From: a virus
Reading direction: 5' to 3' (one strand)
IMG/VR virus record: IMGVR_UViG_3300035523_000050
Location: 1 to 30,196 of that record
Length of the DNA: 30,196 nucleotides
Shown one piece after another: positions 5,580 to 28,386 of the stretch. The notes under the pieces were generated by a model that saw only the letters and a program-made list of their open reading frames with translations, ran no database searches and was not told the origin of the DNA. Position 1 is the stretch's first letter. Every line of letters begins with the position of its first letter. A program made the translations under genes and the position numbers.

Positions 5580-5899
5580 GGCAAAGCTCCTTTCAAGTAG
5601 CTTGGTGAAGTGTTTGCGGGGCGTTAGCCTTGCGGTCGATTGTAACGCATTGGCCCCAGTGACGTCTAGCGGGTAAGCATGCTGGAGTTGAGTGCTACGG
5701 CGAAAACGGCGAGACGATCAAGGTCGGGTGCGTGCCCGTCTCATGACTCCGCTTCCTCTGGGATGCCTACGGGCATACCCGTGGCCAAAGAGTAAGCAGC
5801 CGCTCACAGGACCTCAGGCTCCCCCGGCCACACGGTCCCGACGTCATCGGCCCGCGGATTCGCCGCGTCTGGCTTGGGGGATGCCGGCATACTCGCGGT
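5580..5899. other. Intergenic region between minus-strand accessory gene and head genes
   Basis: This 320-nt gap separates divergently transcribed genes, so it should hold promoters for both. The right end carries a variant of the repeated promoter-like element (see 5886-5895). A small imperfect hairpin (ATGCC paired with GGCAT, flanked by GGG and CCC) lies about 5759-5780. A short frame ending at 5746 reads VECYGENGETIKVGCVPVS, which looks protein-like and might be the tail of a gene broken by the insertion, but it has no start of its own. The longer + frame at 5692-5946 overlaps the HEXXH gene and looks like a chance frame. Confidence 0.4.
5886..5895 (+). promoter_or_regulatory. Variant GGCATACTCG element, putative promoter -10 for the HEXXH gene
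   Basis: This is a one-base variant of the GGCATAATCG element found four more times. The CATACT hexamer (5888-5893) ends 6 nt before the ATG at 5900. If it is a -10 box, transcription would start at or next to the start codon, giving a leaderless message. No clear -35 is seen. Confidence 0.4.
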
Positions 5900-6487
5900 A
5901 TGAACGAGCCGATGGGCGGGCCGGCCGGCGAGAGCCCCGGCAATAGGACCGAATGCGTCGCCTGCCGGCGCCCGTTCGTCTTCATGGCCACGGCCGTCCC
6001 CGTCTGTTCCGCCTGCTGGGACACCACGCAAGGCCGCAGGGCCCGCGCCGCCATCCAGCTCGCACTGTCCCGCTCTATGGGACCTCCGTCCTCCCCGCCG
6101 CCGGCTCCCACTCGGCCGGATCCAGCCCACCTCAGCCTGGAGGAAGTGCGGGAGTTGTGCGCCCTCTGGCAGAAGCGGCTCAGGTTGCAGGACTGGCTGG
6201 TGGCGGTGCGGATCGTCCCTCACTGGAACATGGACCGGGATAGCGAGGGCCGCTGCGACGCCACCCTCAGCCGCAAGATGGCGATCATCGACATCCTGGA
6301 GCCCGGCCACCTCTATGAGGGCGGCCTCTGGCCCAACGATATGGAGCGCACCCTCGTCCACGAGCTTCTCCATCTGCACTTCGCCCCGTTCGAGGCCGAG
6401 ATCGGAACGCCGGCCGATGCCGCTCAGGAGCAGGCCATCGACCTCATCGCCGGCGCTCTGGTCGATCTCGCCCGATTCGGCCGGTGA
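5900..6487 (+). CDS. Zinc-ribbon/HEXXH metallopeptidase-like protein
   Basis: The 195-residue product has an N-terminal four-Cys zinc ribbon (Cys19, Cys22, Cys36, Cys39), a proline-rich linker (62-76), and a helical C-terminal domain with HELLH at 154-158 and Glu177 in QEQAIDLIAGALV as the likely third zinc ligand. That is the zincin pattern, so peptidase activity is plausible but the substrate is unknown. No Shine-Dalgarno site is at a usable distance: GGGGGA lies about 17-18 nt upstream. The promoter-like element ends just before the ATG. It is followed by a hairpin terminator (6502-6531) and then the scaffold gene, the place where many phages keep the prohead protease. No serine-type prohead protease was recognised in the window. 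It could equally be a regulatory zinc protein. Confidence 0.75.
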   Translation: MNEPMGGPAGESPGNRTECVACRRPFVFMATAVPVCSACWDTTQGRRARAAIQLALSRSMGPPSSPPPAPTRPDPAHLSLEEVRELCALWQKRLRLQDWLVAVRIVPHWNMDRDSEGRCDATLSRKMAIIDILEPGHLYEGGLWPNDMERTLVHELLHLHFAPFEAEIGTPADAAQEQAIDLIAGALVDLARFGR

Positions 6488-6501
6488 GGCCAAAACAGGA
6501 G

Positions 6502-6531
6502 CAGGGCCGCCAAATAACCTGGGCGGCCCTG
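6502..6531 (+). terminator. Hairpin terminator after the HEXXH gene
   Basis: A perfect 10-bp stem, CAGGGCCGCC (6502-6511) with GGCGGCCCTG (6522-6531), encloses a 10-nt loop 15 nt after the stop at 6487. The T-tract is weak (ACTCGTT). It separates the HEXXH gene from the scaffold gene, whose own promoter-like element follows at 6642. Confidence 0.7.
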
Positions 6532-6641
6532 ACTCGTTCCAGAAGCTTGTCCTCCGCGTACACGAGCATTGTACCCCACGGATGTCCGCCAGTCAATCCC
6601 CTCTAGACTACTTTTTTCGCGTTCTCCCCACCTGCGCGGCC

Positions 6642-6651
6642 GGCATAATCG
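6642..6651 (+). promoter_or_regulatory. GGCATAATCG element upstream of scaffold gene
   Basis: An exact copy of the repeated element, embedded in GCCG-GCATAAT-CGGC so that 4-bp arms are inverted repeats. The CATAAT hexamer (6644-6649) ends 25 nt before the scaffold ATG, leaving room for the AGGAGG site at 6663-6668. It follows a terminator hairpin, as expected for the start of a new transcript. No conserved -35 was found. Confidence 0.55.
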
Positions 6652-6674
6652 GCACGTTTCCCAGGAGGATACGC

Positions 6675-7307
6675 ATGTTCACACGCACATTCAGCCGCCT
6701 GCCCTTCACCGTCTTTGCGCCGGAGACGGGCGGCGGTTCCGGCGGAGGCGGCGGGCAGGACCCGGCCGCTTCCCTTAAGCCCCAGGCGGGCGACAAAGAC
6801 GGCGAGCCAGGCGCTCCCGACAACCCAGCCGCTGCCCAGGAGGCCGCGGACGAGAAAGACCCCGCGAAGCGACTCGAGGCCATCCAGAAGGAACTGGAGA
6901 CCACGCGCAAGGAGGCGGCCAACTACCGCACCAAGCTGCGCAAGCTGGAGGAATCGGCCCAGGCGGCCGACGAGGCCAAGCTCGCGGAACAGCAGCAGTG
7001 GAAGGAACTCGCCGAGAAGCGGGAGGCCCGCATCAAGGAGCTTGAGCCGCTCCAGGATCGCGTCTCCGCTTACGAGAAGCGCGAAACCGAGCGCATCGCC
7101 GCATCGATCAAGGACTGGCCCGAGAACCTCAGGAAGCTCGTGGAACGCGCTTCCAGCCTTGAGGAGAAGCAGGCCGCCCTGCAGGACCTGAAGCCCACCG
7201 TGGACGCGCTGGCCGGCAAGGCCGCCGCCCCCGGGTCCGGCCCGGGTCCGAAGGCGTCCGGTGACTCGAAGACGGCCATCACATCTTCCCGGCCGGTCCG
7301 TCTGTAA
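6675..7307 (+). CDS. Capsid scaffolding protein
   Basis: The scaffold guides assembly of the capsid shell and is removed before DNA packaging. The ATG at 6675 has an AGGAGG site 6 nt upstream; the open frame extends further upstream to 6315 but overlaps the HEXXH gene and a terminator, so 6675 is the real start (210 residues). The composition is typical: a Gly/Pro/Ala-rich N-terminal part with a GGGSGGGGG run, a long charged coiled coil (about 60-185, KELETTRKEAANYRTKLRKL and similar), then a Gly/Pro-rich segment and a basic C-terminus ending RPVRL. Basic ends are common in scaffolds that bind the coat protein. The position, two genes before the major capsid protein, agrees. Confidence 0.82.
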   Translation: MFTRTFSRLPFTVFAPETGGGSGGGGGQDPAASLKPQAGDKDGEPGAPDNPAAAQEAADEKDPAKRLEAIQKELETTRKEAANYRTKLRKLEESAQAADEAKLAEQQQWKELAEKREARIKELEPLQDRVSAYEKRETERIAASIKDWPENLRKLVERASSLEEKQAALQDLKPTVDALAGKAAAPGSGPGPKASGDSKTAITSSRPVRL

Positions 7308-7340
7308 CGCTCACTTTGACACAGCAAGGGGAACCAACCC

Positions 7341-7748
7341 ATGGCAGATATTGCAGTCACCGCCGCCGCCGTGGCCCCGGCGCGTGCGAAGTTCGAGAGC
7401 TTCTCGTTCATCGCCGCCGCCGCCATCACGAAGGGCGCCGCGGTCTACATCACGGCCGCCGGCAAGGTTGACAACGCCGACGCCTCGCTCGCCGCCTCCG
7501 CCGGCGCCATCGGCATCGCGCTGTCTTCCGTTGGCGCCGGCCAGGCCGTCGAGGTCCTGACGCGCGGCCCGGTCGCAGGTTACAACCTCACCGCCCAGGC
7601 GTACGGGGCGACCATCTATCTCTCGGATACCGATTCCGGCATCCTCGCCGACGCCGCTGGAACCACCAGCAAAAAGGTCGGCATCGTCCTGCCCACGTCG
7701 GACAACGACCTCACCAAGGTCCTGTTCGTCTGCCCGGCGCTGGTCTAG
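7341..7748 (+). CDS. Capsid decoration protein (DUF2190-like)
   Basis: The 135-residue protein is rich in Ala, Gly, Val and Thr and built of short beta-like stretches: AAITKGAAVYITAAGKVDNA, GAIGIALSSVGAGQAVEVLT, ATIYLSD and KVGIVLP. This pattern (a value that becomes active, a GIAL segment, an EVLT/GPV segment) is typical of small capsid-stabilising or head-fibre proteins of the DUF2190 type, which sit on the outer shell. The gene lies directly between scaffold and major capsid genes with its own Shine-Dalgarno site (AAGGGGA), as in many siphoviruses. The family assignment is by pattern recognition. Confidence 0.72.
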   Translation: MADIAVTAAAVAPARAKFESFSFIAAAAITKGAAVYITAAGKVDNADASLAASAGAIGIALSSVGAGQAVEVLTRGPVAGYNLTAQAYGATIYLSDTDSGILADAAGTTSKKVGIVLPTSDNDLTKVLFVCPALV

Positions 7749-7780
7749 GCGCAGGGACCTTCAAGAGGAGCTAACAAGCT

Positions 7781-8851
7781 ATGAGCACCGTCTACGGACT
7801 CCTGAACGTCTCCGACCTGAGCACCATCTCGCAGGTTGGACAGCAGGAGATCTACACCGCGGCGTCCGGGATCCTCGCGGCGCATGACGCGGAACTGAAC
7901 CGCGCGCTGGGCCTGTTCGTCCAGCCGCAGACCACGACCCTCTACAACGAGATCTACAAGCTGATCTCGGGCGGGAAGATGCAGAAGGTCAACGAGTACG
8001 GGCAGCCGATGGCCGTGAAGGCGTCGGGGCAGTACAACGTGTCCTACCCCATCCACGACTTCCAGGATGCCATCGCGGTGACCCGGGTGACCCGCGCCAA
8101 GATGACTCTGCGCGAATATCAGCGCCATCTCGACAACATCAACGACCGGCACATCAACGCCATCCGCTTTGAGGTGCTGCGCGCCCTTCTGAACAAGACC
8201 AACCAGACATGGAAGGATCCGCAGTTCGGAGATCTGACCTTGCGGCGGTTGGCCAACGGTGACGGAACCGTCTTCCCGCCGGTTGTAGGTAGCGAGGCCG
8301 GGGCCGAGGACACGCACTACCTGGTCAGCGGCTACGTCACCGCCAACATCTCGGACGTGAACAACCCGTTCGTCACCCTGCGCGCCGAGCTCATCGAGCA
8401 CGGCCAGGGCGATATGGTCGCGTTCATCAATGCGGCCGAGACGACTAAGATCTCCGCGCTCACCGCGTTCGTCGAGGCCCCCGACCCGTTCATCCGGGCC
8501 GGTTCGTCCAATGACGCCATCGTCCAGCAGCTCGCAAACGCCCCGGGGACGTATCTCGGCCGCGTGAAGGGCTCGGGCGGCGCCGGCTGTCACGTGTTCG
8601 AGTGGAACCAGGTCCCGGCCGCTTACATCCTCGCGCTGAACCTTGCGCTGGATCAGCCGCTGAAGAAGCGCGTCGATCCGGAAACCGAGCTGCAGGGCTA
8701 CGGCCTGATCCCCGGCGCCAACCCGCAGTACCCGCTGCAGGAAGCCATCTACGGCGAGCGCTGCGGCTATGCCGTGGCCGGCCGCCTGTCCGCCGCCGTC
8801 ATGTTCCTGGACGCCGGCGGCGTCTACAACACCCCGGCCGCGTTCGCCTAA
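7781..8851 (+). CDS. Major capsid protein
   Basis: This is the most likely shell protein: 356 residues, preceded by a strong AGAGGAG site, placed after scaffold and decoration genes and before the connector genes. The N-terminal part is helical (IYTAASGILAAHDAELNRAL); the middle contains a YPIHDFQDAIAVTR segment and a long helix (TLREYQRHLDNINDRHINAI followed by RFEVLRALLNKT), as in HK97-fold capsid proteins with a spine helix. The end is RCGYAVAGRLSAAVMFLD, where a basic Gly-containing segment normally closes the P-domain. No separate cleavable delta domain is evident, consistent with a distinct scaffold gene. A hairpin terminator follows at 8881-8906. Confidence 0.85.
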   Translation: MSTVYGLLNVSDLSTISQVGQQEIYTAASGILAAHDAELNRALGLFVQPQTTTLYNEIYKLISGGKMQKVNEYGQPMAVKASGQYNVSYPIHDFQDAIAVTRVTRAKMTLREYQRHLDNINDRHINAIRFEVLRALLNKTNQTWKDPQFGDLTLRRLANGDGTVFPPVVGSEAGAEDTHYLVSGYVTANISDVNNPFVTLRAELIEHGQGDMVAFINAAETTKISALTAFVEAPDPFIRAGSSNDAIVQQLANAPGTYLGRVKGSGGAGCHVFEWNQVPAAYILALNLALDQPLKKRVDPETELQGYGLIPGANPQYPLQEAIYGERCGYAVAGRLSAAVMFLDAGGVYNTPAAFA

Positions 8852-8880
8852 CCAGGCGGACCCGGTCACGTGATGCATTG

Positions 8881-8906
8881 AGCCTCCGCCCGCTTGGGCG
8901 GGGGCT
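8881..8906 (+). terminator. Hairpin terminator after major capsid gene
   Basis: AGCCTCCGCCC (8881-8891) pairs with GGGCGGGGGCT (8896-8906) around a GCTT loop, with one U-G pair, then TCGTGC. It lies 29 nt after the capsid stop. It may limit downstream expression so that capsid protein is made in excess; the T-tract is poor, so partial read-through is likely. Confidence 0.65.
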
Positions 8907-8932
8907 TCGTGCAACGGCAAGGAGAGACACCC

Positions 8933-9340
8933 ATGGCAACCAAAGAGGCGATCGGGATCATGCGGGAGAAGGTGCACGCGCGCCTGGCCGCCGCCTCGGC
9001 CGAGCTGATGGCACGGCACGGCCTCACCCCATCGCAGTACGTGAACCTGAGCAAGGATCCGGACATCGCCACCGTTCGCACCCTGGAGGCCATCGCCGGC
9101 GACCTGGAGGCCGTTAACGCGGCGAACAGTGAGGTGGCCGAGGCGGAACCTGACGAGAAGACCGGTCTCCTGGGCGCGGTGCTCGACGGGAACGCCGATA
9201 CCGTGAAGGCGCGCATCGCCGAGGTTGAGAGCGTGGACGACCTGCGCGCCATCCACGCGATCGAGACGGCGCGCGGGGCCAAGGCCCGCAAGACGGTGCT
9301 CGCTGCCGTCGAGGCCCGCATCGCCGCCCTGGAGGGATAA
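8933..9340 (+). CDS. Hypothetical protein in head-tail connector region
   Basis: A 135-residue, mostly helical and acidic protein. The ATG at 8933 is preceded by AAGGAG (8919-8924) at 8 nt; the open frame runs further upstream but through the capsid terminator, so the later start is chosen. Visible features are a REKVHARLAAASAELMARHG helix, TPSQYVNLSKDPDIATVRTL, and a C-terminal repeat-like helical section (AEVESVDDLRAIHAIETARG, KARKTVLAAVEARIAALEG). I do not recognise the family. Placement directly after the capsid gene suggests a head-completion or packaging accessory role, or a regulatory small protein. Confidence 0.7.
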   Translation: MATKEAIGIMREKVHARLAAASAELMARHGLTPSQYVNLSKDPDIATVRTLEAIAGDLEAVNAANSEVAEAEPDEKTGLLGAVLDGNADTVKARIAEVESVDDLRAIHAIETARGAKARKTVLAAVEARIAALEG

Positions 9341-9343
9341 GGC

Positions 9344-9574
9344 ATGGCAAAGCAGACGTTCCCGATGGTGGTCCAGTCCGGCGAGGTGTGGGGGCGAAAC
9401 GGCAAGGTGATTGAGTCCCTGCACCTGGGCGTGTCCTCAGATGATTCCGTGATGGAGTACTCCGACGCGCCGACGCCATCGCCGTCCATGAGCCTCTACT
9501 TCGACCAGGGCGAGGGGCTCTCCAAGTTCCCGGTCGGCGCGGCCGTCAACGTGACGGTGGAGACTGCGGACTGA
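9344..9574 (+). CDS. Small hypothetical protein between capsid and connector genes
   Basis: A 76-residue frame begins 3 nt after the previous stop with a GGAGG site at 7 nt, and its TGA overlaps the ATG of the next gene (TGATG). The sequence is beta-rich with no helices of note (FPMVVQSGEVWGRNGKVIES, then MSLYFDQGEG, PVGAAVNVTVETAD). No signal peptide or membrane segment is seen. Tight coupling on both sides makes it a real gene; its function is not recognisable from sequence. Confidence 0.65.
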   Translation: MAKQTFPMVVQSGEVWGRNGKVIESLHLGVSSDDSVMEYSDAPTPSPSMSLYFDQGEGLSKFPVGAAVNVTVETAD

Positions 9575-10002
9575 TGACACGCAAGCAGGCTCTGGCCTGG
9601 CTGATGAAGGAGTTCGCCGAACCGTTGGCGGACTCCGACCTCGGCTGGACCTTCACCGACGCCGACCCCGAGGGCCGCCTCGCCGGCGTCATCGACAACG
9701 CGCTGCGGGGCCTCGGCGTGAACGAAGATGCCCTCGCCACGGCCGAAGTGATCCAGGAGGACGTGCCCGACTTCCTGACGCTGCTCGCTTACCACGCCCT
9801 CCAGGCGTTCACCCGCGCCTTCGCCCTGTGGGTGGATGTCGAGGTGGACGACCCGAAGACCGCCAAGAACTACAGCCAGCGTTACCGCGCTTACAAGGCC
9901 CTGCTCGACCAGGCGAGGAAGGAGGCCGAGACCGTCCTTGCCTCGGCTTTCGAGACTGGCGCGCTGACTCTGGACATCTACGAACCGAGCCCAACCTACT
10001 GA
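9574..10002 (+). CDS. Probable head-tail connector protein
   Basis: The 142-residue product is largely helical: an N-terminal helix (KQALAWLMKEFAEPLADSDL), an acidic segment, then long helices (FLTLLAYHALQAFTRAFALW, YRAYKALLDQARKEAETVLA). Small all-helical proteins at this position, after the major capsid gene, are usually the adaptor that docks on the portal (the gp15/gp6 class of SPP1 and HK97). No strict motif confirms this. It starts in a TGATG overlap with the previous gene and ends in a TGATG overlap with the next one, so it is translationally coupled. Confidence 0.55.
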   Translation: MTRKQALAWLMKEFAEPLADSDLGWTFTDADPEGRLAGVIDNALRGLGVNEDALATAEVIQEDVPDFLTLLAYHALQAFTRAFALWVDVEVDDPKTAKNYSQRYRAYKALLDQARKEAETVLASAFETGALTLDIYEPSPTY

Positions 10003-10424
10003 TGGCCAGCATCCTCAAACCCGGAGAGATCGACGGTATGGACGCGCTCTACATGGACAGCCATGGAGAGGCGGCAATCAGCGTCTTCACCTGCGGCCGT
10101 GCCCTGGACAACGCGGGAGAGGTGTCCGGCATCCCGGCCGCCGCCTGGACGCGGAGGGCCAGCGATGTCGTTGGCGTCGTCGTCCGCGGGGTGAAGCCGC
10201 ACGTGCTGGAGACTTTCGCCGAACCTGATCGCCTATCGGCCGTCTTCCGCGCGAGGATCGGCCAGAAGGGCAAGGTGCAGGCAGGTGACGTCTTGCGCGA
10301 AGCCGATGGGACGGTCTGGCTCGTCTTTGAGCCGACTGAGTTCGAGAGTGGGCGGCCCCGCGTGCGCGCGGGCCTGGAGCTCGTCCCTGTCTCGATGGTC
10401 CCGGCGGCCCTGAGGCTCCCCTGA
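10002..10424 (+). CDS. Probable head closure (stopper) protein
   Basis: The ATG at 10002 overlaps the previous stop. The 140-residue product has a beta-rich core, notably SDVVGVVVRGVKPHVLETFA, LSAVFRARIGQKGKVQAGDV and TVWLVFEPTEF, resembling small beta-barrel head-closure proteins that follow the adaptor. The gene order (helical protein, beta-barrel protein, gp10-like protein, terminator-like protein) is the normal head-to-tail joining set of siphoviruses, which is the main support. It ends with a TGATG overlap into the next gene. Confidence 0.5.
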   Translation: MASILKPGEIDGMDALYMDSHGEAAISVFTCGRALDNAGEVSGIPAAAWTRRASDVVGVVVRGVKPHVLETFAEPDRLSAVFRARIGQKGKVQAGDVLREADGTVWLVFEPTEFESGRPRVRAGLELVPVSMVPAALRLP

Positions 10425-10963
10425 TGGCCGATCTGTCGTTCGGCATCGACGTAGATCTCTCCGGCCTCTCTGGCCTCCGCAACGCCTCCGATGAGATAGA
10501 CCACGTGCTCACGGCTGCGGCCTTCCAGGCGGGGGCGAGGGTGCAGGCCGAGGTCGTCACCCGCATGCCGGTGGACCTGGGAGCCGCCCGCAACAACATC
10601 TCATTTCACGTCACCCGCGAGCGCGACGGGCTGACTGTCGAGATCGCCGGCAATCTGGAGTACCTGCCGACCCTCGAAGAGGGCCGAAAGGCGGGGAAGA
10701 AGGCGCCGCCGTATGACGCCCTCATCCCATGGGTGAAGCGCCACCCGTCGCCCCCGATGAGCTTCCTCACCGCCAAGGGCGCCCGCAGCCACAGGAAGCC
10801 GCCCACGGACAAGAGCCGCGCCTTCCTCATCGCTCGGGCCATCGGGAAGCGCGGCCAGCCCGGCCACCACATGTTCCGGGACGCGGCGATAGCCTCCGCG
10901 CCCGACGTCACCGCCGCTTTCGAGGACGCCATCACGATACTCACAAGGAGCCTGAACACATGA
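10424..10963 (+). CDS. HK97 gp10-like neck/tail-completion protein
   Basis: This 179-residue protein matches the general form of the HK97 gp10-like family: an N-terminal helical part (IDHVLTAAAFQAGARVQAEV), the hallmark MPVDLGAARNNISFHV in which P-V-D-x-G-x-x-R-x-x-I is the conserved core, a beta part ending in EIAGNLEYLPTLEEGRKAG, and a C-terminal stretch with GQPGHHMFRDA before a final helix. Members join the completed head to the tail or act as tail-completion proteins. Its stop overlaps the ATG of the next gene. Confidence 0.75.
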   Translation: MADLSFGIDVDLSGLSGLRNASDEIDHVLTAAAFQAGARVQAEVVTRMPVDLGAARNNISFHVTRERDGLTVEIAGNLEYLPTLEEGRKAGKKAPPYDALIPWVKRHPSPPMSFLTAKGARSHRKPPTDKSRAFLIARAIGKRGQPGHHMFRDAAIASAPDVTAAFEDAITILTRSLNT

Positions 10964-11439
10964 GCATCGCCGCCATCAAGGCGAAGATCGTTGAGCTGCT
11001 GTACAACCTGCCCGAGCCCGGGCAGGTTGTCGCCTTCCCCGGCGCGGAGTTGGACGCCGAGGCGGCCGGCGACTTCTCCGGGTTCTTCACCAGCATTACC
11101 CGCAACGGGATCACGCAGACCCGCCGTACCCTGGGCGGCAGCGGGGCGGGCAAGATGGACCGCGTGCACGCCATCGACATCGACGTCTACCTCCCGATGG
11201 ACGTGTCGAGCGGAGCCGGCGCGGCCGCCAACGAGGAGCGGTTTGACGCGCGCATAGACGCCATCCTCCAGGCGCTCGCCAGTCGGACATCCCTGGATGG
11301 CCTGGCCAGCCGGTCTGAGCCGCCGCACGCGTTGGAGGACTCCAACGGGATCCGCTTCTACCGGGGCGTGGTCCAGTGCCGATACCGCCGCATCCGCTGG
11401 GAGGTCACCGAAGACGCGCGCTACGACGGGCGCCATTGA
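10960..11439 (+). CDS. Probable tail terminator protein
   Basis: The ATG at 10960 overlaps the previous stop (ATGA) and has AAGGAG at 9 nt. The 159-residue protein has a short N-terminal helix, a beta segment ending in GGSGAGKMDRVHAIDIDVYL, a helix with DARIDAILQALASRT, and a final strand (RFYRGVVQCRYRRIRWEV), the alternating alpha/beta layout of gpU-like tail terminators, which cap the tail tube and bind the head. The location between the gp10-like gene and the tail tube gene is the standard one. No catalytic motif is expected. Confidence 0.6.
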   Translation: MSIAAIKAKIVELLYNLPEPGQVVAFPGAELDAEAAGDFSGFFTSITRNGITQTRRTLGGSGAGKMDRVHAIDIDVYLPMDVSSGAGAAANEERFDARIDAILQALASRTSLDGLASRSEPPHALEDSNGIRFYRGVVQCRYRRIRWEVTEDARYDGRH

Positions 11440-11447
11440 GGGTAGGC

Positions 11448-11457
11448 GGCATAATCG
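11448..11457 (+). promoter_or_regulatory. GGCATAATCG element before the tail tube region
   Basis: An exact copy of the repeated element, set inside GGCG-GCATAAT-CGCC, again with inverted 4-bp arms. It begins 8 nt after the terminator-protein stop; its hexamer (11450-11455) ends 23 nt before the ATG at 11479, with an AAGGAG site between. There is no hairpin directly before it, so it would add transcription to an already transcribed operon. Confidence 0.55.
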
Positions 11458-11478
11458 CCTCTGAAGGAGCTTCTATCC

Positions 11479-11679
11479 ATGAAAGTGACACTCAAGAAGG
11501 GGGAGCGGCATATCCCCCTGGACGGCTGCGATGTCGTCGTGTTCGTCGCCGGCGTGCCCGTCGAAGTCCCCGAGATCGAGCGGCCGCGTTTCGCCGAGGA
11601 TCCCGCCTTCGAGGTGTCCCCGGCCCCGGCCGCCGCCGAGGTGGCCGCGAAGCCCGCGAAGAAGGGCGGTGATGCGTAA
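11479..11679 (+). CDS. Small hypothetical protein before tail tube gene
   Basis: The 66-residue frame has a good AAGGAG site and lies just after a promoter-like element. The N-terminal half is beta-rich (MKVTLKKGERHIPLDGCDVV, VFVAGVPVEVPEIE) and the C-terminal half is a low-complexity Ala/Pro/Lys tail (APAAAEVAAKPAKKGGDA). Its stop overlaps the tail tube ATG (TAATG), so translation is coupled to a very highly expressed gene. Function is unknown; short proteins in this slot are common in siphoviruses. Confidence 0.65.
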   Translation: MKVTLKKGERHIPLDGCDVVVFVAGVPVEVPEIERPRFAEDPAFEVSPAPAAAEVAAKPAKKGGDA

Positions 11680-12677: not shown

Positions 12678-12682
12678 ACCCT

Positions 12683-13276: not shown

Positions 13277-13470
13277 AGCCGGGGCAGAGGACGGACTGGG
13301 CGGAGGTCTTCGCCCTGATGGCCCACTACTACCCCGGGATCAGGGTGGGGCGGCAGAGCCTTCCGCAACTGGAGGGTTATCTCCGCAGGCTGCCGAAGGC
13401 GCTTGAGCCGCAGGCCGGGGCCGCGGCCTTGGCGACGGGCAGACTGTTCACGGCTGGGATGGGCAGATGA
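13276..13470 (+). CDS. -1 frame extension of tail assembly chaperone (GT-like), or a small separate frame
   Basis: After the chaperone stop the -1 frame stays open to TGA at 13468-13470 and reads EPGQRTDWAEVFALMAHYYP, then GIRVGRQSLPQLEGYLRRLP and an Ala-rich end, about 64 residues. WAEVFALMAHYYPG and LPQLEGYL look like true protein. The -1 frame is open for more than 200 nt upstream of the stop, so a ribosome slip could occur anywhere there. The nearest candidate is GCCCCGG just before the stop, which is not a standard X-XXY-YYZ heptamer. An ATG at 13318 could instead start a 50-residue protein, but it lacks a strong Shine-Dalgarno site. The tail gene context favours the frameshift reading. 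Confidence 0.55.
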   Translation, partial: EPGQRTDWAEVFALMAHYYPGIRVGRQSLPQLEGYLRRLPKALEPQAGAAALATGRLFTAGMGR

Positions 13471-13473
13471 GGA

Positions 13474-13506
13474 AAGGGGCCAGGAGCATCGCGCTCCTGG
13501 CCCCTT
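13474..13506. terminator. Bidirectional hairpin terminator between convergent genes
   Basis: A perfect 14-bp stem, AAGGGGCCAGGAGC (13474-13487) with GCTCCTGGCCCCTT (13493-13506), has loop ATCGC. It lies 4 nt after the chaperone extension stop on the + strand and 7 nt beyond the end of the minus-strand gene (13514). Read on the minus strand it is followed by TCC, on the plus strand by CACC, so T-tracts are short. It probably ends both transcripts. Confidence 0.75.
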
Positions 13507-13513
13507 CACCAAT

Positions 13514-14098
13514 TCACTTGAACCCGCCGAACCAGTTGCCGCGGCCGTGGTTTGGCCTGGTGTCGCAATGGATGGCCAAGTGCTTCACCTCGTACCTGTA
13601 CAGGTTGAATCGCTCGCCGTCCCCCTTGGTGAACCTCCAGATGGGCACCTTGACCGTGTGGCCGGCGCCGATGACTGGCCATTGGACTTCCCAGCCACCA
13701 CTAATCAAGCCAGGGTTGAGCTCCAGGCGGAGATCCACATAGTCGAACGAGTTGCCGTTCCGAATGTAGACGAACCCATCCCGGACGACAACGCCAGCCT
13801 TCAGCTCCACTGACGCGGGACTATCTGTCTCTGCCGATGGCGCTGCCTGACGTACAGGAGCCGCCGGAGTTGTGGGTCCGGAACACCCCCGTAACATCCC
13901 GTTCAACACCAGGCACGCCAGAACGAATGCCCCGAGACACCCGCAGATGCCGTTGCCGGAGGCCGCCGCTTTGTCGTCACGTGTGATCGGCGAGGGCGCC
14001 TTCGGCCCTTGGCATGGTCCGGAGAGATGTGTCGCCATGGACGACGAAAGGACGGGTTTGCCGCAATGTGGACACGTCTCGAAGTTGGGGATAGGCAT
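13514..14098 (-). CDS. Zinc-ribbon membrane protein, minus-strand cargo gene in tail module
   Basis: The 194-residue product starts at ATG 14098, with GGAGG 7 nt upstream on the minus strand; the frame is open further upstream but through the tape measure gene. It has an N-terminal zinc-finger-like segment (Cys9, Cys12, His24, Cys29), a Ser/Pro linker, one hydrophobic helix (about 51-69, CLGAFVLACLVLNGML), an Ala/Pro linker, and a beta-rich C-terminal domain (about 96-180, VELKAGVVVRDGFVYIRNGN, GGWEVQWPVIGAGHTVKVPI). This layout, zinc ribbon, membrane helix and extracytoplasmic beta domain, is seen in host-type membrane proteins and not in virion parts. Transcribed against the late genes, with its own terminator, it fits a moron expressed in the lysogen. 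I do not recognise a named family. Confidence 0.7.
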   Translation of the reverse strand: MPIPNFETCPHCGKPVLSSSMATHLSGPCQGPKAPSPITRDDKAAASGNGICGCLGAFVLACLVLNGMLRGCSGPTTPAAPVRQAAPSAETDSPASVELKAGVVVRDGFVYIRNGNSFDYVDLRLELNPGLISGGWEVQWPVIGAGHTVKVPIWRFTKGDGERFNLYRYEVKHLAIHCDTRPNHGRGNWFGGFK

Positions 14099-14180: not shown

Positions 14181-14190
14181 GGCATAATCG
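14181..14190 (+). promoter_or_regulatory. GGCATAATCG element directly before the tape measure start
   Basis: An exact copy of the repeated element. The hexamer (14183-14188) ends 9 nt before the ATG at 14198, so a transcript started at the usual distance would have almost no leader. There is no Shine-Dalgarno match in the short sequence between (CGGCCCGTC). It lies in the intergenic space with the divergent minus-strand gene. Confidence 0.55.
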
Positions 14191-14197
14191 GCCCGTC

Positions 14198-17100
14198 ATG
14201 GCTAACCAAATCAGCATCTATATCCGTGCGAACGGCGCGGCCGCGCGTAAGGAATTCCTCGATACCGCGAAGACCGCAGAGACCCTTGAGGCGGTCGCCA
14301 AGGCGGCGGGAGCCCAGTTCGGCAGGCTCGGCGTTGAGGTCAAGGTCTCCGGCTCCAAGGCGAAGGGCGCCCTGAAGGAAGCCGAGCAGGCCGCCAAGGG
14401 CGTAGGGGACGCCGCGGAGTCCGCCTCCCGGCGGATGAGCCTCCTCGGGCGGGCGTTCACCGCCTATGGGGCCAACGCCCGCCGAACCCTCACCGACGCC
14501 GAGTACGGCATGAAGAGCCTGGCCGACTCCGCCGGCGCGATTAGCGCGCGCCTGGCCCTCGTGGGCGGAATCGGCGCCGCCGGCATGGCCGTCCTCGGCA
14601 AGACCGCCATGTCCACGGCCGCGAACATGGAGCAGACTTCCGTCGCCTTCGGGACCCTCCTTCACTCCTCGGACGCCGCGAAGAAGTCCATCCAGGCGCT
14701 CAGTAAGTTCGCCGCGGAAACCCCCTTCGAGTTCGGCCAGGTCACCCAGGCCGCAAAGCAACTCCTCGCCTACGGGTTCAGCGCCAGGGAGCTCATCCCC
14801 ACCTTGACCAGCGTGGGAGACGCTGTTTCCGCCGTGGGGGCTGGGGCTGAGGGCATGGATGCCGTCATCCGGGCGCTGGGACAGATGCGCGCCAAGGGCA
14901 AGGTCTCCCAGGAGGAGATCAACCAGATCGGCGAGTTGGGGCTCAACGCCGGCCAGATCCTGCAGCGGGAGTTCCACCTCACGAGCAAGGAGATGGCGAA
15001 CATCGGGATCGCCGGGATCGACGTCGAGAAGGCGATCAGCGCCATCCTCCGCGGCTTCGAAAAAGCGTTTGGCGGCGGGATGGCCTCCCAGGCCCGGACG
15101 ATGAACGGCATCATCTCGAACCTGAAGGACCTCTGGTCGCAGTTCCTCGCCAACGCCGATGCCGACGGCCTGGGCGATGAGATCAACCGCGTGGCAAAGC
15201 CCGCCCTGAACGACCTGCTGAACGAAGTGATGCGCCTCCGAAAGGACGGGACGCTGCGCAAGTGGGCCCGCGAGATCGGGGATGAGTTCGGCCGGCTGGC
15301 GAAGGCCGCCTCCGAAGCGCTGAAGTTCCTCGCGCGCCACCCGGATCTCGTCCTCAGCGCGGCGAAGTGGGCGGGCATCGCCACCGCGGTTGCCCTGGCC
15401 GGGAGCGCGCTGGCGAAGGTGATCCAGACGGCTCTCGTGCTCGGTCCGTACCTGGTGAAGGCCGCGGGCGGCGTGCGGCTCCTCGCGTCGGCCTACGTGG
15501 GCCTGAATACTGCGTCGATGGCAGCCGCCGGCGGCAGTAAGGGCTTGGTCTCCGGCATGGCGTCGATGATCGCGATGATACCTGGCTGGCTGAAGCTGCT
15601 AGCGGCCTTCGCAGCCGCCATGTACCTGATCTACCAGCGGGGCAAGCAGATTGAGCATGAGCGCGAGGCCGCCGGAAACACCCAGGACCGCGAAGCCCAT
15701 TACTACCAGTCCCGAGCCTCCGACTACATGAAGGCCGCGAAGAAGAACCCGGCGATCCTCAAAGAGCATGGAGGGTTCGTCCGGGTCCCCGAAGAGAACC
15801 AGCGATATACGGCCGACGAATGGGAGGCTCTGGCCCCTTCGCGCAAGAAGAGCCTCACAGCGCAAGGTCGCGTGAGCAAGGCATACGAGCCAGTACCGGG
15901 GGCGAAAGCAGACATGCCTTCGGCTCGTCCGGAATACGACTGGATCGGCAGCCCGACGCACGGAAAGACCCCGCCGGTGTACACGGTCAAGGCCCGCCCA
16001 GGCGTAATGGTGTGGAAGTGGAAGGGGAGGGGCCCCGTCGACGCCGCCATGGCGAAGGTCCTGGACACGCCGGCTGTCCCCGACGTCGAGGTCCCGCGCA
16101 TCGGAACTCCCCAGGTGGACACGAAGGGCGAGAAGGCCGCGAAGAAGCTCGCCGACGAAGCGGCTCAGGCGAAAGCGCAGGCGAACAAGCAGATCCTCAG
16201 CCTGGACCAAACGCCCGAGGGCAGGTTGCGCTCGGCGCTGAACGAGGTGGACGAGACGCTCCGCTCGGAGCCCGCAGGCTCCAAGGCGAACGCCAAGGCG
16301 CATGCGCTTGTGCTCTCCGCCGCCGAGAAGAGCCGCAAGGCCGCCTATGCCGAGTTCTACAAAGCGGTGAACGGCGCCCTCGTTGAAGCTGAACTGGAGC
16401 TGCTGCGCGCGCAGGATACCCCCCTCTCCCGCCGTCGCGCCGCCGAGATCGAAGCCGGCCAGAAGCTGCGCGAGAACTGGGCCTCGCACGCCGGCGCCGG
16501 CGACAAGATGCTCTCCGCCCGGCAGACCGACCGCCGGACCTTCGAGACCTCCATGGCCGCGGCCGAGGCCGCCTACGTGAAGGACCTGGATGACGCCTGG
16601 GACAAGACGACCAACGACATCCTCGACGACTTCCAGCAGCGCATGGATATGGAGAGCCAGGCTCACCAGCAGGAGCTGCAGGACCTACAGGAGGCGCGCC
16701 AGGCCAGGCTAGATGCGGACCAGGCCGCGGCTGACAACGCGCGCCGCACCATCGACCTGCGGGTAGAGGATGCGCTGAAGACGAAGCAGATCTCCGAGCA
16801 GGAGAAGGCCGGCATCCAGAGCGATTACGAGATCTGGTATGACCTCCAGATCAAGCGGCAGAAGGCCCGCGAGCACGAGCTCCGGACCGCCGCCGTCGTC
16901 GCCGCCATGTTCGGCTCTGCAGCGAAGGCCGCCGCGCTGAACGCCCAGGCCGATGTCATCGCCGAGGGCGCGAAGACCCTGGAGGCGGAGAAGCAGCAGA
17001 CCATCGCCAAGAGCCTGGAGACAATCAGTCTCCACAACCTCAAGAACGATCTTCAGCACCTGGAGAACCGGAAGGCGCAGACGAAGGAGACGGCGGAACG

Positions 17101-22585: not shown

Positions 22586-22586
22586 C

Positions 22587-25500
22587 GTGAGACGACACGC
22601 ACTCTACCTGTGGGCGGTTGTGGCACTCGCCGTCTGCCTCATCACTCTGCCGGCGGCTGGCCAGCTCAACGTCCAGCCGCGCGACTTCAAGCAGCCCTCA
22701 AGCGTGGCCTACACCATCGGCGGCGTCACGTTGCAGAATGGCACGATCACGGCCGCAGATATGGCGGCGCTGCGGGCCGCGCTTGGCCTTGGCAACGCTG
22801 CTACCAAGAATGTCGGGACCACGGCCGGCACAGTGGCCGCCGGCGACCACACGCACACGGCGGCCCAAATTGCTAACGTGGTCACCACGAACACTGATCA
22901 GACAATCACCGCAAGCAAGACCTTTGCCCCAACCTCCACCACAGCGACCCCGCTCATCGTGACGACCAGCGGGACGGGGCAGGATGGCATCTCATCCACG
23001 AACACGTCCAGCAACTCCGGGGCGGCGATCCGGGGCATCAGTACCTCACAATCGGGCTACGGGCTCTACGGGTCCAGCAGCAACGTCCAGGGGATTGCCG
23101 TCTACGGCGTCAATACCGCAACATCCTCCGCCGGTTCGGTCGCCGTCCAGGGCGTGGCATCGGCCAGTTCCGCCGGCGTCGGCGTTCAGGGCTCGGGCGG
23201 CACAGGGATCGACGGCGCCGGCGTGCTGGCTTCGGCTTCTGCAGGGCCGGGGCTGAGGGTCAAGCAGGCATACGCGGGGAACATCACCCAGCCTGGGAGC
23301 GTGTTGCAGCGCAACGCGACCCTCGGCGGCACGTCGTCCTCAGACCTACTGAGGCTGTGGGAACAGGGGGCGACCACAACGGGCGCGACGTTCATCAACG
23401 CGTACACCGGATCGAGCAGCCCCACCACATCGGTCTTCAAGGTCGGCATGGACGGCTCTGTAACGTCCGCTGGAGGGTTCAACGGCAGCGGCTCAGGCCT
23501 CACCGGCGTGCCCCCGACAAGCCTCACCGGAACCGGCCTCATCCCAACGGCCGCCCTCGGCACGGGGACCGCCAACGCCTCATCGTACCTGCGCGGCGAT
23601 CAGACATGGGCAACGCCACCCGCCGCGCCGGTGTCCTCCGTGTTTGGCCGCACGGGGGCCGTGGTCGCCGCCACAGGAGATTACTCCGTGGGGCAAGTCA
23701 CAGGAGCCGCGCCGCTCGCTAATCCGGCGTTTACGGGTTCTGCGAGGGTCGCCGGAGGATTGAACGTTGACGACACGACAGCCAGGGTAGCCGGCGGGAT
23801 CAAGCTCGGTCGCGTCGGCACTAACGAACCCTTCCTGCTGTTCTCAAACGCGGATGGGGCCACCCAATTGGCTCAAATCCGCGGCGGGGCTTCCGGATCG
23901 CTTCGCATCACGACCGGCGACTCAGTTACGGAGTGGGCGCACTTCGACAGTGCGGGCGCCACGATTGCGGGCGGGGTCACGGCAACCTCACTCACTCTTC
24001 CTGACGCGACCAACGGCGACGTCAGCATCACTAACAACACCGGGTCGTTATACCTCACAACGACGGGGACAAACCGCCAGATCGCCTTGAAGTCGACCGG
24101 CACGGCCGGCGTGAACATCAACTACAACTCGACGTCCACAGGCTCGCTCACCTTCTATGGCGGCGGGACGTCATCCGTTTTCGATGTCGGGAACACGGGA
24201 GTTGTCACGGCAAAAGGTCTTGCAGCGGCGCCTTCGTTTGCCGTGAAGTACGGGTCTGATGCCGTAGCTCGGCCCGCGATCTCCGGCGGAACGCTCGCGG
24301 CCGGAGAGATCAGGGGCGTTGGCAGTTCCACCGCCTCCGATTACGGGTTCCTGCGCGTGAGCGCTGGAGGCGGGACCAGCGCCTCCGGCAAGTCTTGGAT
24401 AGACGTGAGCGGTTACAACGCTCCCTTTCCCGATGCGAATAACAACATCGTCTTCGGGGCTGCGGGCGCGGAGCGGGCGCGGATAACGAACGCCGGTCTA
24501 GCTGTCACGGGAGCGATTTCCTCCACAGGTGCAATCACGGCCGGCGGGGCTATCACGGCGGGTGGCGCGATCACGGCTCCTTCCGTCACGCTCACCAGCG
24601 ACCCGACAGCCGATACCAGCGCCGTGGCCCGCGAGTACGTCACCGGGAGAGGCATGAACCTCGTGGCCAATGGCTCGGGCCTGATGGGGAGCAATTACAA
24701 CTGGTCGCTCGGAACGTTCTACTCGACCGACACCCACGGCGGCAAAGGGTCCATGAAGATCACCGGCGTGAAGTCGAGCACGTTCAGTGATGAGTACATC
24801 GCCATCGACCCCACCCGCACGTACAAGCTCTCAGGCTGGGGCAAGTTGCTCAACAAAGTGGGCGCGGCCAATCTCTGGTACTTCGGCATCGGCCTTTTTG
24901 ATATCGACGGCTTGGCCATGAGCCGCCCCTACACGGATCACAAGGGCAACGCTCGCCTGACCGCTCCACTCAAAGCTGGAGACACGACGATTGCCGTCGA
25001 TGACATATCCGGTTGGAACCCCAACGATTGTTACGGCTGGAGCGGGGAGTTTGTCCTCTATGGCTACAAGAACTCGGGAGGCTACACCTACCCAGACTAT
25101 ACGTATTCCCGCATCACATCCGAGCTAGCGTACTCAACAGGCGTTGGATCGTCCGGAGCCTCTGAGCCCTCCTGGAACACCGCCACGTCGGGCTTGACGC
25201 GGGACAACATCATCGTCTGGCAGGAATGCGGCACAGACACAACCGGCATCTCGACATGGACTCCAAGCACCGCCTACGGGACTTACGTAGTGGTGAAGCC
25301 CACCGTCGCCAATGGGCATATCTACAAGTCCTATGGGTGTCCTGTGTGGCTGAACCACACGAATACGTCGATCGCGCTTCGCTCTCCTCTGCCGGCCTCT
25401 CTGGAAAATCCCTATGCCGTCTCGGGGACGACAACGCCCTCATGGCCAGCCTCCGGCGTCGGGAACAACTGCATCGACGCGAGCATTCTATGGACGGACG

Positions 25501-28310
25501 CCGGCGCCGCGGCCTCCGATCCCGTGTGGCAGGCAAGCTACGCCTATACCACGGGAACGGCAATCACGGCGAACGGTAGAAAGTACACAGCGGCCCGCAT
25601 TTGGACTACCGGAACTGCGATTGCGAACTCCTTGGGGGGTGACGGGAACGCTCGATACGTGGCCGCCGGTGGCGTCTCTATGGTGGTTGGAAACGACTGG
25701 TACAACGCGGTCGGCTATATGGGGCCAACCCCCAGCGGCGTGTACGACAACGGGACCAACCATTTCCCGCCCGGCACCGCTTTGATCAAGATCGGCGGGC
25801 ACTGGAACTATACTGGCAACGCTGCCGACGTGATGCTGGTTTCCGACGTGTGGCTCTCGGAACTCACCGCGAGCAATATCGAAGGCGCAACTGCCTCACA
25901 GCAGGGTGTCATCACCACGGGCACGCAGACCTTCGCAGGGGCTAAGACGTTCACCGCCAACCAGGCGATATCTACCACGAACACCCATGATGCGCTCACC
26001 ATTACTACAACGAGCGGGTATCGGTCGCTTGTAACAAGGGTGGCCGGTGAGGCGAATTACCGGCTCTACATCAACGGAAGTGCTTTATGGATAGGGGACG
26101 GAACCAACGTCGTCGACACCTCTCTGTACCGCCATGCGGCCGGGAAGTTGCGTACAGGCGGCGCGTTTCTCGTAGATGGCAATCTAGGCGTAGGGACGAC
26201 CTCCCCAACCTATGCCCTGCACGTCGCGCCATCTGTGACGAACGCCAGCGGGACGGCGTTATTCCAAGACCCGTCCAACACCTCCGTACAGGTTCGGTCT
26301 GGATCTAGTCAAACAGGTCCACCGTTCATAATTACCAACAATGCCGGAAGTGTTCTATGGGGTGTCAACAACGTCGGCGTACTCTATGGTGGCTCCGGTT
26401 GCGGCATTGCGCTGACGGCACCGATCTATAACGGAAGCAGTGGATCGGCGGCGTCGAGCATTCTTCCAGCGGGGACAGGGACGCAGATTACTACCTCAAC
26501 TGCAACCAACGTAGCCCTGACCATCCAGTCCGCGGCCACGACGCCAACCGCGAACCTCACTAACTGGAAGGCGCCTGGTGGCGGCATTCTGACCTCGGTA
26601 GACGCCGGCGGTGCCATTGCCTCAACGGGCCTCAATGTCGCCGGCGTACAACCGCCCAGCGTAACCACCGGGAACGGTACAGCCGGTCCGCCAATCTCCC
26701 TCACGGCGGCACAGGGCGGCGCCACAACGGCGAGCCAAGCCGGCGGCAAGGGCGGCAGCGTGACGATCACGGCGGGCCAAGGCGGCCCCCTAGCTCCGGC
26801 GGGCGGGTATGGACCGGGCGGCGACGTTACGATCAACCCAGGCCTCAAGGGAGGCGGCACGCTGGCGGCTGATGGTAACGTGTTCGTGGCCAGCGCCGGC
26901 GGCAAGGTCCGCATCGGCTCCGCGGCGTCCCCCCTCTCCACCTTGGACGTGGCGGGGACGATCAACGCCACGGGCTACAAGTCGGGCGGATCACTCGGAA
27001 CCGTGGGCGAGGTACTGCGCTCCGATGGCGTCAACGGCTTCACCCGCGCCCAGCTCACTTACGACGACATCGGAATCACGGGGGCGATCAACACTGACGG
27101 AGGGATCACCTCACGAACCACGGTCAGCCGATCAACCACCCTCACCGACGCCGGCCTATCAGTGGCTCAGGATGGCGCTACGGCAGGCCTGTTCTATGGA
27201 TCCTCCGGATGGGCGTTCGATAAGGCGGTAGCGGCTCCCTCTCTCAACGTCGCCGGGTCTGTGGTGGCCCATTCCGTGGAACTTGGCTCCAACACGATTA
27301 GCGGCGGCGCGGCGGGGCTTACCATCGACTCAGATGCGAGCGCCGTCAACATCACCGGCGAGGGCGGCCTCACCGTCTCAGGACCGATCACCGCCACAGG
27401 GACCATTACCGGCCCTATCAACGCCTCTGGCATCACCACAGGCACGCTGAATAACGCGCGATTGCCCGGCAACATCCGGGCCTACATGCTCTCGACAGGG
27501 CTACTGGACACGCCCGAAGTGATGGCAACGGTGGACGGAGAATCCGCCGGCGGCAACACCGAGGCGTGGGACGTGACGGCTGTATCCGCTGGCGGGCAGG
27601 AAAGCTCTCCAGGGTACGTCTCGGCCATGGTAGATTGGACCAACGGGAACAGTGTTACCCTTGCATGGTCACCAATCACTGGGGCCGATCACTACAACAT
27701 CTACTACTTGGGCTACTCGGGCGCCGGGCAAACCGGACTCGCAACCACGGCGACTGAAACAACCTGCGTTGGCAGCATCTCCGGGGACGGAATAACCTAC
27801 CCGCCAGGTGAGCCTCCGTTCTCGGTGGCTACTGATGGCATCGTTCACGCCGTCAGCTACAACGGCGATGGAGGGAACCTAACGAACCTGGCCGCAAACG
27901 CCATCACAGGGACGATTCCAGACGCTCGCCTCTCAACCAACGTCCCCTTGAAAGCGACTGCCAGCACATACGCGGCGTTGCAGACCTTCAACGGCGGCCT
28001 CACAGTGGGCGGCGCGCGGGCGTCGAAGGTGACCACCCTCACCGGATCAACGGCGACCTACACCGCGGCGTCTGAGGAGTACCTTCTCGTCAACCGTGGA
28101 GTAGCCACTACAATCAGCCTTCCGGCGGCGGCCACGTGCCTCGGCCGGGTCTACACGATCAAGCGCCTCAGCGCCTACGCCCATGTGATCGACCCCAGCG
28201 GCTCCGAGACGATAGACGGGGCGACGACATTCACATTCTCGGCCGACAAGCAGGCCGTCACCATCGTCAGCGACGGGACGGGCTGGCAGATAGTGAGCAA
28301 GTACCTCTAG
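22587..28310 (+). CDS. Giant tail fibre-like protein with N-terminal signal peptide
   Basis: A 1907-residue, Gly/Ser/Thr-rich repetitive protein follows the tail-tip gene. It has a strong AAGGAG site 8 nt before the GTG at 22587. The first 25 residues look like a Sec signal peptide: MRRHALY, hydrophobic LWAVVALAVCLITL, then PAAG before Gln26. Fibre features include AAGDHTHTAAQI (about 85-96), SSYLRGDQTWATP and FGRTGAVVAATGDYSVGQV near 330-375, repeated ITAGGAITAGGAITA (about 650-664), two or three W/Y binding-type modules (about 840-1010), a fibronectin-type-III-like stretch around 1640-1740, and a C-terminal domain ending DGTGWQIVSKYL. Such sequences form trimeric beta-structured fibres for receptor binding. 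A hairpin terminator follows. The signal peptide is unexpected for a virion fibre. Confidence 0.82.
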   Translation: MRRHALYLWAVVALAVCLITLPAAGQLNVQPRDFKQPSSVAYTIGGVTLQNGTITAADMAALRAALGLGNAATKNVGTTAGTVAAGDHTHTAAQIANVVTTNTDQTITASKTFAPTSTTATPLIVTTSGTGQDGISSTNTSSNSGAAIRGISTSQSGYGLYGSSSNVQGIAVYGVNTATSSAGSVAVQGVASASSAGVGVQGSGGTGIDGAGVLASASAGPGLRVKQAYAGNITQPGSVLQRNATLGGTSSSDLLRLWEQGATTTGATFINAYTGSSSPTTSVFKVGMDGSVTSAGGFNGSGSGLTGVPPTSLTGTGLIPTAALGTGTANASSYLRGDQTWATPPAAPVSSVFGRTGAVVAATGDYSVGQVTGAAPLANPAFTGSARVAGGLNVDDTTARVAGGIKLGRVGTNEPFLLFSNADGATQLAQIRGGASGSLRITTGDSVTEWAHFDSAGATIAGGVTATSLTLPDATNGDVSITNNTGSLYLTTTGTNRQIALKSTGTAGVNINYNSTSTGSLTFYGGGTSSVFDVGNTGVVTAKGLAAAPSFAVKYGSDAVARPAISGGTLAAGEIRGVGSSTASDYGFLRVSAGGGTSASGKSWIDVSGYNAPFPDANNNIVFGAAGAERARITNAGLAVTGAISSTGAITAGGAITAGGAITAPSVTLTSDPTADTSAVAREYVTGRGMNLVANGSGLMGSNYNWSLGTFYSTDTHGGKGSMKITGVKSSTFSDEYIAIDPTRTYKLSGWGKLLNKVGAANLWYFGIGLFDIDGLAMSRPYTDHKGNARLTAPLKAGDTTIAVDDISGWNPNDCYGWSGEFVLYGYKNSGGYTYPDYTYSRITSELAYSTGVGSSGASEPSWNTATSGLTRDNIIVWQECGTDTTGISTWTPSTAYGTYVVVKPTVANGHIYKSYGCPVWLNHTNTSIALRSPLPASLENPYAVSGTTTPSWPASGVGNNCIDASILWTDAGAAASDPVWQASYAYTTGTAITANGRKYTAARIWTTGTAIANSLGGDGNARYVAAGGVSMVVGNDWYNAVGYMGPTPSGVYDNGTNHFPPGTALIKIGGHWNYTGNAADVMLVSDVWLSELTASNIEGATASQQGVITTGTQTFAGAKTFTANQAISTTNTHDALTITTTSGYRSLVTRVAGEANYRLYINGSALWIGDGTNVVDTSLYRHAAGKLRTGGAFLVDGNLGVGTTSPTYALHVAPSVTNASGTALFQDPSNTSVQVRSGSSQTGPPFIITNNAGSVLWGVNNVGVLYGGSGCGIALTAPIYNGSSGSAASSILPAGTGTQITTSTATNVALTIQSAATTPTANLTNWKAPGGGILTSVDAGGAIASTGLNVAGVQPPSVTTGNGTAGPPISLTAAQGGATTASQAGGKGGSVTITAGQGGPLAPAGGYGPGGDVTINPGLKGGGTLAADGNVFVASAGGKVRIGSAASPLSTLDVAGTINATGYKSGGSLGTVGEVLRSDGVNGFTRAQLTYDDIGITGAINTDGGITSRTTVSRSTTLTDAGLSVAQDGATAGLFYGSSGWAFDKAVAAPSLNVAGSVVAHSVELGSNTISGGAAGLTIDSDASAVNITGEGGLTVSGPITATGTITGPINASGITTGTLNNARLPGNIRAYMLSTGLLDTPEVMATVDGESAGGNTEAWDVTAVSAGGQESSPGYVSAMVDWTNGNSVTLAWSPITGADHYNIYYLGYSGAGQTGLATTATETTCVGSISGDGITYPPGEPPFSVATDGIVHAVSYNGDGGNLTNLAANAITGTIPDARLSTNVPLKATASTYAALQTFNGGLTVGGARASKVTTLTGSTATYTAASEEYLLVNRGVATTISLPAAATCLGRVYTIKRLSAYAHVIDPSGSETIDGATTFTFSADKQAVTIVSDGTGWQIVSKYL

Positions 28311-28329
28311 CGATTGGCGCGCTGAGCAG

Positions 28330-28365
28330 GAAGGGGGCGGAGCCGGCCACGGTTCCGCCCCCTTC
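28330..28365 (+). terminator. Hairpin terminator after tail fibre gene
   Basis: A 16-bp stem, 28330-28345 with 28350-28365 (one G-U pair), has a GCCA loop and is followed by TTTGC, the best T-tract of the set. It starts 20 nt after the fibre stop and separates the tail operon from the lysis cassette. Confidence 0.8.
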
Positions 28366-28376
28366 TTTGCGTGGGC

Positions 28377-28386
28377 GGCATAATCG
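28377..28386 (+). promoter_or_regulatory. GGCATAATCG element before the lysis cassette
   Basis: An exact copy 12 nt after the terminator. The hexamer (28379-28384) ends 30 nt before the GTG at 28415, leaving space for the GGAGG site at 28404-28408. A terminator followed by this element is also seen before the scaffold gene. Confidence 0.6.

Follow-up and report, generated by a model that had tools for sequence, protein, structure and literature searches.

A repeated ten-base element at the starts of late gene blocks, a probable late promoter family, in an uncultured siphophage-like virus and its close relative

A ten-base element, GGCATAATCG, stands ahead of five gene blocks in an uncultured virus and very probably constitutes a family of phage late promoters. 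The window analyzed here is the whole IMG/VR contig IMGVR_UViG_3300035523_000050 (30,196 bp, 66% GC), which carries siphophage-like head, tail and lysis genes. We infer promoter activity and late timing for these elements from their bases, their positions and the genes that follow them. Each copy would start one block (a protease-like gene, the capsid block, the tail block, the tape measure gene and the lysis genes, respectively), and the factor that reads them may be phage-encoded.

When both strands of the whole window were scanned, four exact copies of GGCATAATCG were found on the plus strand, along with a fifth plus-strand copy with one mismatch, exactly as the preliminary description had given them; no copy was found on the minus strand. 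The five elements are as follows.

5886-5895, plus strand: variant element GGCATACTCG, preceding a HELLH-type metalloprotease-like gene that lacks a Shine-Dalgarno sequence; predicted +1 at 5900, the AUG itself; found in the relative at 4816 as GGCATACTCG with the same spacing
6642-6651, plus strand: element preceding the scaffold-like/decoration/major capsid block (start 6675); conserved at relative position 5583
11448-11457, plus strand: element preceding the tail block (start 11479); conserved at relative position 9938
14181-14190, plus strand: element preceding the tape measure gene, which starts at 14198; +1 predicted at 14195; found in the relative at 14371 as GGCATAATCC with the same spacing
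28377-28386, plus strand: element preceding the lysis cassette (start GTG 28415); conserved at relative position 22979

Among the 10-mers present at least three times in the window, GGCATAATCG has the highest ratio of observed to expected occurrences under a second-order Markov model (4 observed, 0.0075 expected). Its score (-log10 P of 9.9) was not reached by any 10-mer in 300 sequences simulated with a second-order Markov model (maximum 7.9); a weaker test allowing one mismatch was matched by 1 of 100 shuffles. Outside the element copies, CATAAT occurs just once more on the plus strand of the window and ATAATCG does not occur again. All five copies lie outside called genes, in the 7% of the window that is non-coding, which bears out the earlier statement that none falls within a gene. 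They had been placed 6-30 nt before start codons, and while they do lie shortly upstream of starts, the measured range is 4-28 nt, with gaps of 4, 23, 21, 7 and 28 nt for the starts at 5900, 6675, 11479, 14198 and GTG 28415. Because approximately 3.9% of window positions are within 45 nt upstream of a plus-strand start, chance placement of four copies would be rare (approximately 1e-7 for four exact copies on the coding strand, by simple multiplication).

The preliminary description had asked for a scan of relatives. One close relative was identified, IMG/VR 3300035523_000098 (24,688 bp), the capsid protein of which is 74% identical to that of the window, and the element is present in it at all five orthologous gene-block starts. 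No further close relative was found when viral contigs were scanned with capsid, minor tail, tape measure and P0002 sigma-part queries. A portal query of viral contigs added distant contigs, in none of which the exact element occurs, and a P0001 query found the phage G020 described below. In megablast, the window had no match among 50,697 phage records, and tblastn with the window capsid protein returned distant actinophage capsids alone (approximately 26%). The window and the relative start at exactly the same base and are near-identical over their first few hundred bases; this common first base is probably an assembly-graph break, or perhaps a physical end.

Read as a promoter, the consensus GSCGGCATAATCG would be of the extended -10 type without a -35, with CATAAT at -12 to -7, GG at -14/-13 and CG at -6/-5. 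Over the ten sites of the two phages, GGCATA-TC is invariant and the upstream consensus is GSC. With A or C allowed at -8, 99 of 100 bases fit the consensus: changes are confined to -8, which is A or C (the ACT variant at the first site is common to both phages), and -5, which is G at nine of ten sites, the relative's tape measure copy ending in CC rather than CG. A-11 and T-7, the -10 positions most important for melting, are kept at all ten sites, as is C at -12, while -15 to -13 reads CGG at nine sites and AGG at one. At four sites, DNA similarity between the two phages extends beyond the upstream edge of the element by only 0, 4, about 8 and 16 nt (4 nt at 28377); the phages thus have the element in common but not the -35 region, which lies about 16-21 nt upstream. 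The upstream sequences at 14181 are non-homologous; those at 11448 are coding and are homologous between the two phages. The absence of a shared -35 had been noted from the window, and the upstream columns are indeed low in information. Sharing of the element with one close relative partly reflects common ancestry.

The expected transcription start is some 7 nt beyond the T at -7. By this count, +1 coincides with the AUG of the gene at 5900 and precedes that of the gene at 14198 by 3 nt; the distances in the relative are the same, and exactly these two genes have no Shine-Dalgarno sequence. As the predicted starts lie 0 or 3 nt before the AUG, these two messages would be leaderless or near-leaderless, while the other three would have short leaders with their Shine-Dalgarno sequences (AGGAGG, AAGGAG and GGAGGGG). 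Conservation at five of five sites, position at the heads of late blocks, retention of A-11 and T-7 at all ten sites and predicted starts close to AUG codons that lack a Shine-Dalgarno sequence together make a dedicated late promoter family, as first proposed, the best reading of the element.

Several other features lie between the late blocks.

6499-6535, plus strand: hairpin, likely terminator of the preceding unit, upstream of 6642 (-27.2 kcal/mol for 6490-6550, z -3.35)
28326-28370, plus strand: hairpin downstream of the long tail/fibre gene and likely a terminator, upstream of 28377 (-41.6 kcal/mol for 28325-28376, z -6.1)
13474-13508, no strand assigned: hairpin between the end of the plus-strand operon and the end of the minus-strand cargo gene (-33 kcal/mol for 13465-13515, z -6.2)
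13514-14098, minus strand: cargo gene (zinc ribbon and membrane segment) between the tail block and the tape measure gene, in a region that differs in the relative
4890-5579, minus strand: cargo gene with the Shine-Dalgarno sequence AAAGGAG and a canonical-type promoter upstream
5639-5668, minus strand: canonical-type promoter TAGACG-18-TACAAT, predicted to drive the cargo gene at 4890-5579, a contrasting class

Folding confirmed the hairpins upstream of 6642 and 28377, which had been described as terminators preceding two of the copies. The hairpin at 13474-13508, which has a counterpart on the other strand in the relative, ends the operon before 14181, and the minus-strand cargo gene lies between them. 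Both minus-strand cargo genes are inserted between late blocks, where the relative has other DNA. By eye, 4053-4850 is a remnant that resembles an IS5-type transposase (no Pfam match was found for it), and the end of the relative's contig resembles the end of an IS630-type transposase.

The window contains a second promoter-like sequence of the canonical type on its minus strand, TTGACT-17-TACAAT at 6596-6568, which is followed by the strong hairpin at 6499-6535 between two late blocks; the pair is a possible short antisense or small RNA. Similar sequences occur in G020 (IMG/VR 3300035523_000153, 37,962 bp), a phage from the same metagenome as the relative that has the lysis cassette and P0001 in common with the window at 92% DNA identity. 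G020 has three repeated promoter-leader units, with TTGACG-18-TACGAT, TAGACG-18-TAGGAT and TGTGATACAAT. These near-identical units (L256:13355, L256:18687 and L257:12377, G020 position 31377) lie just upstream of genes, and each consists of a sigma70-type promoter, a shared leader of approximately 45 nt (GAGACATAGCGCTTG.TGCGCCAGAGGTTTGACCCGGCGC) and a T-run hairpin; the shared leader is a candidate processive antitermination or attenuation leader. All of the vegetative-type sites of the window minus strand and G020 have T at -12, and most have a -35. This apparent vegetative class, TTGACg-17/18-TAcaAT, differs from the late element, and we infer that it is the vegetative class of the host. Neither a copy of the element nor P0002 was found in the 37,962 bases of G020.

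Two sigma-70-like proteins are encoded in the window.

1678-2769, plus strand: P0002, sigma-70 protein fused to HNH/AP2 (region 2, short linker, region 4-like), candidate recognizer of the element
29638-30165, plus strand: P0001, a second, smaller protein resembling sigma-70, encoded at the end of the lysis cassette (26 bits for Pfam Sigma70_r2, cutoff 24)

P0002 matches Pfam Sigma70_r2 with 35.4 bits (cutoff 24), as expected of region 2 in the sigma-70 family, and NCBIfam SigF with an E-value of 1e-13; a match to RpoD has an E-value of 6e-7. Its region 2 is up to 49% identical to FliA/WhiG-type sigmas of Armatimonadota. Region 4 gave no Pfam match; TIGR02937 covers residues 7-188 with 39.8 bits, below its cutoff of 42.9, and the helix-turn-helix aligns with those of host sigmas. 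The order is a FliA/SigF-group region 2, a shortened linker, a region 4-like helix-turn-helix and HNH-AP2, with region 3 mostly missing. Between the window and the relative, the sigma part has 7 amino acid versus 31 synonymous codon changes over 200 codons and the HNH part has 44 versus 48 over 160 codons, a pattern that points to strong constraint on the sigma part and rapid divergence of the nuclease part. In the alignment, P0002 carries G and K at the positions of Q437 and T440 in E. coli sigma70, where the mutations Q437H and T440I suppress a T to C change at -12 (PMC2613000); these residues would be compatible with a protein that reads C at -12. P0002 is present in both element-bearing phages, while both it and the element are absent from G020 and from the part read of a prophage of Armatimonadota. 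This correlation is drawn from two phages that have both and two that lack both, which is a small number of independent phages, and the contigs are fragments.

Whether P0002 reads the element is, on this evidence, evenly balanced. The location of its gene in the portal/head block is odd for a late sigma made early, and the HNH-AP2 half means that P0002 could instead be a nuclease that borrowed a sigma-like domain for DNA binding. Among the phage-collection proteins most like its sigma part, those examined were ordinary sigmas of the sporulation type that lack HNH. With AlphaFold, the models of P0002 and P0001 had a pLDDT of 39, too low for use. The most specific proposal, that P0002 is a group-3-derived sigma with an HNH-AP2 nuclease module serving as the late promoter factor of this lineage and reading a 10-bp element with C at -12, is held only tentatively.

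Armatimonadota is our best guess for the host phylum because portal matches there (6 of 291 genomes; best 39% identity, E-value: 1e-95) are stronger than in a sample of 301 Chloroflexota (best 29%, 5e-24). The Armatimonadota prophage mentioned above is related in its portal (37-39%), its capsid protein (29%) and its tape measure protein, and the 20 kb read contain neither P0002 nor the element. To our knowledge, no phage transcription has been studied in Armatimonadota. The density of the 10-mer is 0.13 per kb in the window but roughly 0.0002-0.0044 per kb in nine genomes of this phylum, and the genomes counted thus give no indication that the host uses it generally. When 84,980 species genomes were scanned for the motif plus a Shine-Dalgarno sequence, 103 matches were found, spread over phyla; this scatter speaks against a housekeeping element in wide use. 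A control of the scan with the reversed pattern was biased, as the reversed word contains TAA, and was kept out of the evidence. The same scan of viral contigs gave mostly chance-like results among the matches listed. In an unrelated viral contig of 152 kb (L005), GGCATAATCGCC occurs in a clustered repeat paired with GAACAG and was rejected as a different element. A literature text search with GGCATAAT found nothing on phage promoters among the matches listed.

The element might instead be an extended -10 promoter without a -35 that is read by the housekeeping sigma of the host. CATAAT differs from TATAAT at -12 only, the G at -14 agrees with the extended -10 G, one site has ATGACG-16-CATAAT (14161), and matches to the motif plus a Shine-Dalgarno sequence occur singly across many bacteria. 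In an extended -10 promoter of sigma-70, -15 to -13 should read TGn and -12 should be T, but at the ten sites -12 is always C, -15 is never T and the -35 region is not conserved. At other promoter-like sites in these phages -12 is T and a -35 is mostly present, no taxon dominates the species-genome scan, and the 10-mer is approximately 30-fold or more less dense in the nine Armatimonadota genomes. We consider this explanation unlikely, and the late element is probably not read by a housekeeping sigma. Exploitation by the phage of an alternative host sigma of the FliA/WhiG/SigF group is improbable: Armatimonadota possess FliA/WhiG-type sigmas and the sigma28 -10, GCCGATAA, is likewise GC-rich ahead of ATAA (PMC2859248), but exact copies occur at low density in the nine genomes counted from the candidate host phylum and the sites have no TAAA-type -35 in common. 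P0001 itself is above the Pfam cutoff and lies in the unit started at 28377, so that reading of the element by P0001 would be autoregulation, and in phage 7-11 a phage sigma gene has been proposed to lie downstream of its own promoters (PMC4331800). However, P0001 is present (95% identical) in the element-free G020 and absent from the sequenced part of the element-bearing relative, and it is therefore neither needed nor sufficient for the element as far as these contigs show; we regard this reading as quite improbable.

A non-promoter function (a repressor operator, a stoperator, a start-associated translation signal or a recombination linker at module borders) is very improbable. Such functions would suit the single orientation of the copies, their proximity to starts and their frequent position at a border between homologous and non-homologous DNA, and the start-associated sequences of cluster K mycobacteriophages (GGGATAGGAGCCC) are also asymmetric repeats just upstream of starts, mostly in one orientation (PMC3203893). 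Those sequences hold a Shine-Dalgarno-like AGGAG immediately upstream of starts, whereas the element here is a different, AT-cored sequence at a variable distance from the start codon, and the Shine-Dalgarno sequence present at three of the sites is separate from it. The variable spacing is better accounted for by a promoter than by a translation signal. The core is AT although the genome is 66% GC, and it fits a -10 in which A-11 and T-7 are invariant, as expected; at 11448 homologous coding sequence on the upstream side means that there is no border. The preliminary description had left recognition between an extended -10 and a phage factor; the invariant C at -12, the different canonical class elsewhere and the co-occurrence with P0002 now tip this towards a phage factor. 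Overall, we lean slightly towards late promoters of a single-element type, at which a phage specificity factor, most likely P0002, would retarget the host RNA polymerase core.

Promoters of this type are read by phage sigmas from a short conserved element, one per unit, repeated upstream of late genes without a conserved -35, and here the repeated element and the lack of a conserved -35 are found together with phage-encoded sigma-70-family proteins (P0002 and P0001). The middle and late promoters of phiEco32 gp36 have the single element tAATGTAtA, with starts 6-8 bp downstream (PMC8948821). The arrangement is alike, and would be of the same kind only given a link between sigma and element; the present case differs in its GC-rich flank and CATAAT core, in an unrelated phage where a group-3-like sigma is joined to HNH-AP2. 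The T4 system of late promoters and gp55 likewise combines a strictly kept, -10-only element without a -35 and a diverged sigma-70-family protein with domain 2 (PMC2988020), but T4 has about 50 sites versus five here and uses gp33 and a sliding clamp. The T4 consensus is TATAAATA while the element is GGCATAATCG, and no homologue of the T4 late-transcription proteins (gp55, gp33, gp45), clamp or co-activator was identified among PHROG matches of the genes tested. In phage 7-11, the phage sigma gp47 directs late genes from a phage-specific consensus (PMC8948821), but those promoters are bipartite (GTAAtg-16-aCTA). The group-3 sigmas FliA/WhiG/SigF are closest to P0002 in region 2, and sigma28, a member of this group, recognizes a long -10, GCCGATAA (PMC2859248), that shares a GC-rich extension followed by ATAA. 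The element, GGCATAAT, differs from the FliA/WhiG pattern in having CATAAT rather than GATAA and no TAAA -35, and region 3 of P0002 is mostly missing.

This kind of strategy is already known from phiEco32 gp36 and T4 gp55, and what is new is the phage lineage. If the proposed reading is true, it would show how an uncultured phage group switches on late transcription and would provide a sigma/promoter pair whose sequences suffice for an in vitro test. It would also add an example of initiation from a single element, independent of a -35 and with altered specificity at -12. A mobile-nuclease module would then be part of, or be kept in, a promoter specificity factor of Armatimonadota phages, which would add an example of a nuclease fused to a sigma domain. 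Conservation of such footprints at the edges of mosaic modules can reveal phage-sigma promoters in metagenomic contigs.
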